Shown here: positions 17,397 through 20,300 of the stretch, piece after piece
Layout of the letters: every line of letters starts with the position of its first letter
Position numbering within the stretch: position 1 is the stretch's first letter
Origin: Lasiosphaeria ovina
Lineage: Eukaryota > Ascomycota > Sordariomycetes > Sordariales > Lasiosphaeriaceae
DNA: 64,000 nucleotides
Direction: 5' to 3'
NCBI GenBank assembly: GCA_033439765.1
Contig: JAULSN010000005.1
Location: forward strand, 2,371,001-2,435,000
Translations under genes and position numbers: made by a program
The notes under the pieces: generated by a model
Database searches by the model: none
Told to the model about the DNA's origin: nothing
What the model saw: the letters and a program-made list of their open reading frames with translations, nothing else

Positions 17397-20300
17397 TTAA
17401 GAGCTCTTCTCTAGATCGGCCAAGATCTTCTCTCCCTTCGCCCGCGCCGACGCGAAGTCGCCAACCATGTAGAAGGCGCCCTCGGGCAGGTCGTCGCCCT
17501 CGCCGGCCAGAATGGACCGGAAAGAAGCAATCGTGTCCTTCAGGTTAACGAGGCAGCCCTCGATACCCGTGAAGACTTGGGCAACCGTGAACGGCTGGCT
17601 GAGGAAACGCTGGATCTTGCGGGCACGCTCGACAGTAAGCTTGTCGGCTTCCGACAGCTCGTCCATGCCCAGAATGGCAATGATATCCTGCAGAGACTTG
17701 TACTCCTGGAGGATCTGCTGGACGCGAGTGGCGGTGGCGTAGTGCTCATCTCCGACAATACGGGGGTCGAGCATACGAGACTTGGAGTCGAGAGGGTCGA
17801 CAGCGGGGTAGATACCCAACTCGGAGATACCACGCGACAAGACAGTGGTGGCGTCCAGATGGGCGAAGGTAGTAGCCGGGGCGGGATCAGTCAAGTCATC
17901 AGCGGGGACGTAGACGGCCTGCACCGAGGTAATAGAACCCTTCTTGGTCGTGGTAATGCGCTCCTGCATTTGACCCATGTCTACGGCAAGAGTGGGTTGG
18001 TAACCGACGGCGGAGGGGATACGACCGAGCAGAGCAGACACCTCGGAACCCGCCTGGGTGAAGCGGAAAATGTTGTCGATGAAGAGAAGCACTGTGCATG
18101 GTCAGCATTGCGTCGAGGTCACAACAGGCATGGGGGAGCAGAATCTTCATACCATCCTGGCCCTGCTCTCGAAACTCCTCGGCAACCGTCAAGCTATTTG
18201 GTTGATATTAGTACAGATATCCAGCACTGAGGCTGAGATCTCGATGAGACAAGGTGAGGTAGGCTAGGAGCTCGGCAAGAAAACGAAATAGTAGGCAAAT
18301 ATCTGGACAAGATGTGGGATAGCAGGCTGCAGCTAGACGCTTGCAGCGGCGGCAAAACTTGCTGCCCTCTTCCCATGCTTGGCGGAGGCCAGGTGCTTGT
18401 CCAGGTGCCCTTTGCTATTAAATGCAAAGTCGCAGATAGTGCAGGAATGGCGCTTTGATGCCTTGTTTTTGGCTACATTCCTGCGCGCCGAAAGACACGT
18501 CAACGACAACGGCTTCGGGTCGCCACCAGCGGCCAGTCTCGCCTGCGCCTGGTGGGCCTTGGTCTTATTGTGCGAGGAGAGAGCGGTCGCAGATTGAAGC
18601 GAGATCGAGCATATCTGGCATCGATGCTTGTTCGACGCGATGTTTTTCGCGCGATATTTTGCCGCATTCTCGAGCACCTTCTCCCGGTTCCTGCGATCCC
18701 AGTCCAGTCTAATTTGGAGTGTCCTGTCCAGGTATCCGCGGAGATCTTGGGCGCGAGCTTTCGCACGGTGCAGTTGGGACTTTTCGTTCGAACGTATCTT
18801 GGCGAGACGCAAGCGTTCTTCATTGAAGGCCTTGAACTCTTCGATAGACATATCATGGGTGCCCTTTGGACGCTCCGTAAATGCTGTGTGCGTGCAGAGG
18901 GCCTTTACTGTCCTAGGGACACTAGCCTAGGGCCAGAGGCCGTCCTAGATACCATCGATCGAATAATCCGGACAGGCACGAAAGATATAGGCAAAGACGG
19001 CCTCCAGCGCGAGCATGCGGGTTCGCACAGTGCCGATGGTGAACTCTGATGGGATTGGACACCAGCACAGCAGCCCGCGATGCGTGATCTTATATACCCC
19101 TTATCCAAGCTGGATTGGACAAGTCTGGGGTGCTTTCCCTCGTCATAGTCCTTGAATCTTGCCTGGACGCCGTTGACTTTCCGAGTACCTGACCCAACGT
19201 AGAGACCGGGAGGGCATCCTGGCTTCTTCAAGAGCTCTAGGTAGATACCCCAGACCTTGGGGGGCGCGTCTGGGAGCGAGCGGAAGAAATCCAGAGAAGG
19301 GGGAGTCGCTGATTTCAGTGTCTCAAGCAGGTTCGGCGGGCACGACAGGGGACACTCCTCGTTGATCTTCTCGAACGCCGACTCATCGCCTAGTAGCTCG
19401 CGGAAAAGCGGGAAAACCAACCACTCTGGCGCGTCTGTTGTGACGGCACACCAGGTGTAGCCGTCGAGCAGGGACTGGACGTCTTCTGCTGACATGACTC
19501 CGACACGCAATATGGGGTTGCTGAAAGTCTAAGAGATGGCCATGTCCATGTCGAGGACAGGAGAAGAACGAGAACCCATGATGGGCGGGCAATCTCCCTC
19601 CTGGCGGAGTGACTTTGGCGGCCGACATCTTCAACTGGAAGGGACGAGCTACTGGCAACCCAAGAAGAGAAGGCGCTGGTGATAATGTGGGAAGGAACAT
19701 GGAGGGGTGATAGACAAAAGGTAAAGAGCTGGTGGAGTATCACACACAATGGAAGCTACGAAGGAAAAAAAAAAACTTACCCAGTAAGGGCGACACGGGC
19801 ACGGGCTCCTGGGGGCTCGTTCATCTGGCCAAAGACAAGGGCGACCTTGGACTCGCCATCCAGCTGAATGACGGAGGTCTCCTGCATTTCGTGGTACAGA
19901 TCGTTACCCTCACGGGTGCGCTCGCCGACACCGGTGAAGACAGAGTAACCACCGTGGGCCTTGGCGATGTTGTTGATCAACTCCTGGATAAAGACAGTCT
20001 TTCCGACACCGGCACCGCCGAAGAGACCAATCTTTCCACCACGAGCGTAAGGGGCGAGGAGATCCACCACCTTGATGCCAGTCACCAGAATCTCGGCCGT
20101 CGTGGACTGCTCAACGAACGAAGGAGCCTCGGCGTGGATGGGGAGTCTCTTGTCCGACTTGATGGGGCCACGTTCGTCAATCGGGTCACCGGTGACGTTC
20201 ATGATACGACCGAGCGTGGCATGGCCGACACTAATTAGTATCATGGGTTAGCGGATCAGCTCGATATGGCCGCATCAAGCCGCGAGCGACTCTCTCCGGG

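Follow-up and report, generated by a model that had tools for sequence, protein, structure and literature searches.

The window analyzed here, a stretch of 64,000 nucleotides (nt) from contig JAULSN010000005.1 of the ascomycete Lasiosphaeria ovina (assembly GCA_033439765.1, positions 2,371,001 to 2,435,000), contains ATP2, the gene for the mitochondrial F1-ATPase beta subunit. One ATP2 intron encloses the remains of a gene for a putative GIY-YIG nuclease with C2H2 zinc fingers. We propose, with a probability of roughly three in four, that this intron, now decayed, belongs to a family of spliceosomal homing introns that inhabit the nuclear genomes of filamentous ascomycetes, the mobility being deduced from its relatives. 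The locus comprises the following features, with the basis of each in brackets.

17397..21129, minus strand: ATP2, about ten exons (Pfam ATP-synt_ab on two exons; exon-peptide mapping)
18194..19780, minus strand: spliceosomal-type intron of 1587 nt, phase 2, GTAAGT...CTAAT...TAG (sequence)
19496..19780, minus strand: 5' leader of the intron, upstream of the nested ATG, 285 nt (sequence)
18333..19495, minus strand: GIY-YIG/C2H2 pseudogene, sense to ATP2, ATG at 19495 and natural stop at 18335-18333 (frames and relatives' matches)
18945..19250, minus strand: predicted catalytic core of the GIY-YIG domain (GIY near 19249, then YVGSGT, Arg and the LEAVF Glu), split by the frameshift (family invariants; I-TevI-like fold of a relative; hand-counted coordinates)
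19085..19100, minus strand: shift of frame separating the first and second parts of the nested reading frame (sequence)
18945..18947, minus strand: first premature TAG stop (sequence)
18927..18929, minus strand: second premature TAG stop (sequence)
18552..18626, minus strand: first C2H2 zinc finger (Pfam zf-C2H2_jaz on the C-terminal open reading frame [ORF]; hand-counted coordinates)
18375..18449, minus strand: second C2H2 zinc finger (Pfam zf-met, E 3e-8; hand-counted coordinates)
18194..18332, minus strand: 3' tail of the intron with CTAAT (18211-18207) and the acceptor, 139 nt (sequence)

The long intron splits a very conserved protein stretch in phase 2, starting with GTAAGT and ending with CTAATATCAACCAAATAG. 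Its length, position and ordinary spliceosomal ends are exactly as described in an earlier sequence-only reading of the window, which had also recognized that the other eight ATP2 introns are short; we place them at about 55 to 97 nt, approximate values taken from the gaps between mapped exon peptides. The latter amount to nine mapped pieces plus the start codon, and the 3' exon shares 92.6% identity over 230 amino acids with an Alternaria ATP2 model. Dinucleotide ratios of the kind used to detect repeat-induced point mutation are unremarkable in the intron (0.68 and 1.31, versus 0.73 and 1.16 for the window). Across the whole window, no Rfam family was matched at gathering scores; a group I or group II self-splicing intron was rejected on these grounds, although a very divergent ribozyme could escape this search.

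The sense orientation of the nested gene, its GIY, YVG, Arg and LEAVFAYIF Glu elements and its two C2H2 fingers are all as the sequence-only reading described them, but the gene is not intact. A frameshift and a pair of in-frame TAG stops leave the copy in the ATP2 intron dead. From roughly residue 134 onwards, relatives are matched in another frame, the change lying near 19091. Joined across frames for searching only, the pieced-together protein matches the intact protein P0001 with 60% identity over 99% of the query (E 6.8e-143) and is collinear with intact P0001 to P0004 and P0006 (371 to 395 amino acids). Such an end-to-end match indicates that the nested frame is not a chance ORF, and the gene probably died a short time ago. 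As it is a pseudogene, the ATP2 intron is now immobile by its own nuclease; intact family members exist elsewhere, P0001 and P0112 among them. Other kinds of insert were considered and rejected. An intein is incompatible with a nested frame that ends at its own stop (18335) within an insert that has intron ends. A Penelope-like retroelement of the GIY-YIG type was dismissed because the three nested ORFs give only zinc-finger and weak, chance Pfam matches; the intron sequence outside the pseudogene amounts to 285 plus 139 nt.

On the nested ORFs, Pfam detected the fingers and no GIY-YIG domain, and its GIY-YIG profile matched 1 of 31 family members, weakly (E 0.11). Fold searches of the PDB with the full-length P0001 model were swamped by zinc fingers and chance rows, and against a viral structure library GIY-YIG names appeared only at E 0.44 and above. 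Since the fingers dominated these full-length searches, the GIY-YIG domain of the relative P0045 was modelled separately, and its predicted fold is closest to that of the homing endonuclease I-TevI. Furthermore, across the family alignments (A2, 31 rows, one of them artificial; A3, 28 rows; A4, 96 rows), the catalytic Tyr (of GIY), Tyr/Gly (of YIG), Arg and Glu occur in this order, each with full or at least 90% conservation. We take these residues to be equivalent to those of I-TevI, and all of them are present in the pieces of the window's pseudogene. When a profile built from alignment A1 was run against sequences of solved structures, the best 60 of 239 matches included zinc-finger-type proteins, aligned to the fingers, and no GIY-YIG enzyme by title. 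PADLOC and PHROGs were uninformative, the best PHROGs match (0.0032, to an endonuclease family) falling within the P0001 linker. Judged by the modelled fold and the ordered catalytic residues, the nested gene and its relatives probably belong to the GIY-YIG nuclease superfamily.

Three protein searches for the family yielded 13, 36 and 141 matches (120 of the 141 listed), the second and third scoring only the approximately 8000 candidates sharing most words. The family is large and mostly unannotated; most matches come from environmental assemblies, and the organisms named for its members are filamentous ascomycetes. No relatives were confirmed in viral contigs scanned with P0017 and P0001 or in genome contigs scanned with P0017. 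Among the matches listed, 19 members are NCBI sourced, leaving aside P0040, an unrelated insect finger protein. Homologues consistently located as free-standing genes, which the sequence-only reading had named as an argument against a homing element, are not what we found: in 12 of the 19, the nuclease shares its gene model with exons from a conserved gene. Seven host genes are represented, some of their names being ones that we presume from familiar protein families.

HSP70: P0133 (Friedmanniomyces), P0137 and P0139 (Alternaria alternata), and P0145 (A. arborescens)
ACO1, mitochondrial aconitase: P0031 (Lachnellula) and P0111 (Diaporthe)
DED1-type helicase: P0121 (Fusarium nematophilum) and P0136 (Glarea; assigned by 70-74% identity over 27-30 residues)
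PYC1, pyruvate carboxylase: P0122 (Elsinoe)
PMT1: P0028 (Neocucurbitaria)
ATP1: P0147 (a Chaetothyriales species)
ATP2: P0112 (A. alternata)

Host sequence flanks the nuclease on both sides in P0137 and P0121 and on one side in the other fused models. Being spliced across the nuclease ends, the fused models imply that the relatives, too, lie in sense orientation and in introns. These 12 public NCBI records of housekeeping proteins are probably wrong, each apparently being a chimera with an intronic nuclease. This exposes an annotation fault, in which gene finders merge nucleases with host genes such as those for aconitase, Hsp70 and ATP synthase.

Insertion sites recur in the fused models. The Alternaria model P0112 re-enters ATP2 at LTVAEYFRD, which is exactly the exon following the window's intron, with a Ser codon at the join that is compatible with a phase-2 acceptor; the same ATP2 site is used. 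At HSP70, three models re-enter the host at TFTTVADNQQ and P0137 exits after KKR, the residues directly preceding, so that all four are consistent with a single junction. The ATP1 model P0147 exits its host at QYIAPFT. ATP1 of L. ovina carries a short intron nearly there (between FTG and AAIAEYFRD, with the donor picked by eye), near the position that corresponds in this paralogue to the ATP2 site, and a few bases downstream ATP1 and ATP2 have 14 of 17 bases in common (by eye). The nuclease residing in ATP1 shares 45% identity with that of the window, versus 31% for the one in Alternaria ATP2.

The phylogeny of the nuclease supports an association with the host gene. Our tree of the catalytic part has 49 rows: the window, the 12 fused models and 36 hand-picked relatives, drawn from 134 trimmed rows (of 147 proteins, seven lacked a motif match and another seven were excluded by name). 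Host-gene labels on 13 rows require six changes, the minimum for seven genes (shuffle mean, 8.6; 2 of 2000 shuffles as low); the corresponding counts are 23 of 2000 when a single Alternaria HSP70 row is kept and 40 of 2000 without the window. Labels of taxonomic class, for which orders and classes were looked up for eight of the fungi with fused models, Alternaria was placed in the class we take it to belong to and the window was entered as Sordariomycetes, require six changes against a minimum of three, with all 2000 shuffles as low or lower. Without the window, five changes are needed, again with 2000 of 2000 as low or lower. Nuclease phylogeny thus tracks the host gene rather than taxonomic class. 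Sisterhood of the window and Alternaria ATP2 nucleases was rejected (approximately unbiased test, p-AU 3e-52). For P0001 and P0002, the tree leads us to predict a location in an ATP2 intron at the window's site.

Further signs of mobility come from close relatives and from the L. ovina genome. The HSP70 3' exons of A. alternata P0139 and A. arborescens P0145 are identical at 182 of 182 residues, while their nucleases share 66% identity over residues 1 to 215, the catalytic part, and 18 to 19% over 45 to 47 further aligned columns. Between P0137 and P0139, both at the HSP70 site of A. alternata, the catalytic part is 93% identical and the linker and fingers 45% (53 of 118), as if the DNA-binding part had been swapped or were changing rapidly. 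In the genome of L. ovina, the places corresponding to the HSP70, DED1 and ACO1 insertions are unbroken coding sequence. The PMT1 stretch where the Neocucurbitaria model re-enters is also intronless, a less exact comparison since that model lacks an upstream host exon. In PYC1, a short intron occupies the point at which the Elsinoe model exits its host. Searches of the 51.7-Mb genome found no second nuclease domain, and the whole intron is present once. A C-terminal finger relic lies on contig C23 (2714661-2714801; 47% identity over 47 amino acids, with an internal stop), and searches found no nuclease domain near it; other genome matches, with E above 0.1, were treated as chance.

An intact family member would be a GT-AG intron carrying a sense GIY-YIG nuclease gene with C2H2 fingers. 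The nuclease could be produced from the intron transcript or from a promoter of its own. Target conservation and the precedents discussed below suggest that the fingers and linker would recognize a conserved host coding stretch and, in view of the predicted fold, that the GIY-YIG domain would cut intron-less alleles. Repair of the break would then copy the intron with its nuclease into the cut allele, and the spliceosome, for which splice sites are present, would remove the intron from the mRNA so that the host gene stays functional. The nuclease gene may decay afterwards, as seen in the frameshift and two stops of the ATP2 copy. Spread to further genes may be guided by sequence similarity, as suggested by the near-equivalent ATP1 and ATP2 sites and by an ATP1 nuclease that is closer to the window's than is the Alternaria ATP2 one. 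The sequence-only reading had already put forward a nuclear homing-like element, and the idea now gains support from the host-gene fusions, the Alternaria copy at the same ATP2 site and a tree that follows the host.

Some observations weigh against spliceosomal homing introns, and we set them here beside the alternatives. The two ACO1 models exit the host at different places, and P0136 re-enters the helicase further on than P0121, both of which argue against site reuse; the two ACO1 rows are also not sisters in the tree, an exception to the grouping by host gene. In a variant of the homing proposal, the nuclease gene alone homes into preexisting short introns and the intron itself is immobile. 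We regard this as unlikely, its odds overlapping with those of the preferred explanation. The short introns of L. ovina at the PYC1 exit of the Elsinoe model and within a few bases of the ATP1 exit of the Chaetothyriales model allow such an intron-first order. However, a short intron is equally explicable as the remnant left after nuclease decay, and there is no intron at the corresponding places of the four other host genes, which favors an intron arriving with its nuclease.

We give little credence to an old nested gene that entered ATP2 and a few other introns early and was then passed down vertically, diverging fast and being lost in places, without homing. In the HSP70 group, nuclease branching does fit species relations (Friedmanniomyces lies outside Alternaria), and both ATP2 nucleases stand with the ATP1 nuclease on one side of a starred branch, so that a single older ATP lineage, of one ancient origin, is possible. 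Vertical descent is nevertheless hard to reconcile with identical HSP70 exons flanking nucleases that differ at a third of their catalytic part, with two ATP2 nucleases that are not nearest kin, and with the intronless HSP70, DED1, ACO1 and PMT1 places in L. ovina. A transposon-type GIY-YIG element, with many insertion places and persisting mainly in introns, where the damage is smallest, without target-specific homing, would accommodate the C23 relic, which is not known to be genic, and the 7 of 19 NCBI-sourced models without a host exon (P0013, P0034, P0066, P0101, P0125, P0126 and P0143, of which P0066 carries carbamoyl-phosphate synthase in name only), but it is very improbable given that the 12 fused models are confined to seven conserved genes with reused sites (a junction compatible with all four HSP70 models; ATP2 in two fungi), that Pfam found no reverse transcriptase or transposase on the nested ORFs, and that the whole intron is single copy.

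The short PYC1 and ATP1 introns are possibly shrunken homing introns. This leads to a broader and more tentative idea, which we consider somewhat doubtful as it stands: homing endonucleases may drive spliceosomal intron gain in fungi, with GIY-YIG/finger introns entering intronless conserved nuclear coding sites, including those of paralogues (ATP1 to ATP2 or back), losing the nuclease and shrinking to short introns like the one at the PYC1 exit point and the one close to that of ATP1 in L. ovina. On this view, some of the introns of today's fungi would be relics of past homing, and a directly testable route would exist for the gain of spliceosomal introns, a question that has long been open.

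Apart from these elements, an ORF that by eye resembles a secreted esterase, of the acetyl xylan or feruloyl esterase type, lies downstream of ATP2 in the window (15370-16527, minus strand). Elsewhere in the genome, C28:3160493-3160625 is a second, below-cutoff match to 5.8S rRNA outside the ribosomal DNA (rDNA) contig, possibly a 5.8S pseudogene.

The fungal introns can be compared with several known systems. I-TevI-type GIY-YIG enzymes of phage and organelle group I introns share the nearest fold and a gene placed within an intron of a conserved gene, whereas the fungal intron is nuclear, with spliceosomal ends and no Rfam intron match. Group I introns of nuclear rDNA, with His-Cys homing endonucleases, likewise place homing endonuclease genes in nuclear introns of fungi and protists, but they are self-splicing, reside only in rRNA genes and use another nuclease superfamily. 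Nuclear inteins (VMA1, PRP8) and the yeast WHO/HO elements home into conserved nuclear protein genes by means of LAGLIDADG-type nucleases and rely on protein splicing or gene-fragment repair; the fungal insert, in contrast, has intron ends and a nested frame with its own stop. Introners, mobile DNA that creates spliceosomal introns, are many-copy elements, unlike the ATP2 intron, which occurs whole once in its genome.

The analogy with the VMA1 intein, drawn in the sequence-only reading, is superfluous; a much closer precedent is offered by mirusviruses. Spliceosomal homing introns ("shintrons") were described in these viruses in 2025, and cellular equivalents were said to be lacking (PMC12768974). 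Like the fungal introns, shintrons are GT-AG introns without group I or II features, located in conserved genes, with nested nuclease genes that include GIY-YIG types and a nuclease type that follows the target gene. They differ in sitting in viral genes, mostly of virion morphogenesis, rather than in nuclear housekeeping genes. The fungal introns combine GIY-YIG with C2H2 fingers. A nuclease gene inside an intron with spliceosomal ends, no group I or II signature at Rfam gathering scores and a nuclease type following the target are all seen here; an intact nuclease is missing from the ATP2 copy and present in relatives such as P0001 and P0112. Among the open-access papers listed in our literature search, with subscription journals and bioRxiv outside its range, none was seen to describe spliceosomal introns that carry a nuclease within nuclear protein genes of cellular organisms. 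As far as we know, the fungal family thus provides the first candidate cellular shintrons, of which the window holds a dead one, and hints that a parasitic, self-spreading way of life is open to ordinary introns of the nucleus. If so, spliceosomal homing introns, to date described from mirusviruses, would reach the chromosomes of cultivable fungi, open to crosses and assays.
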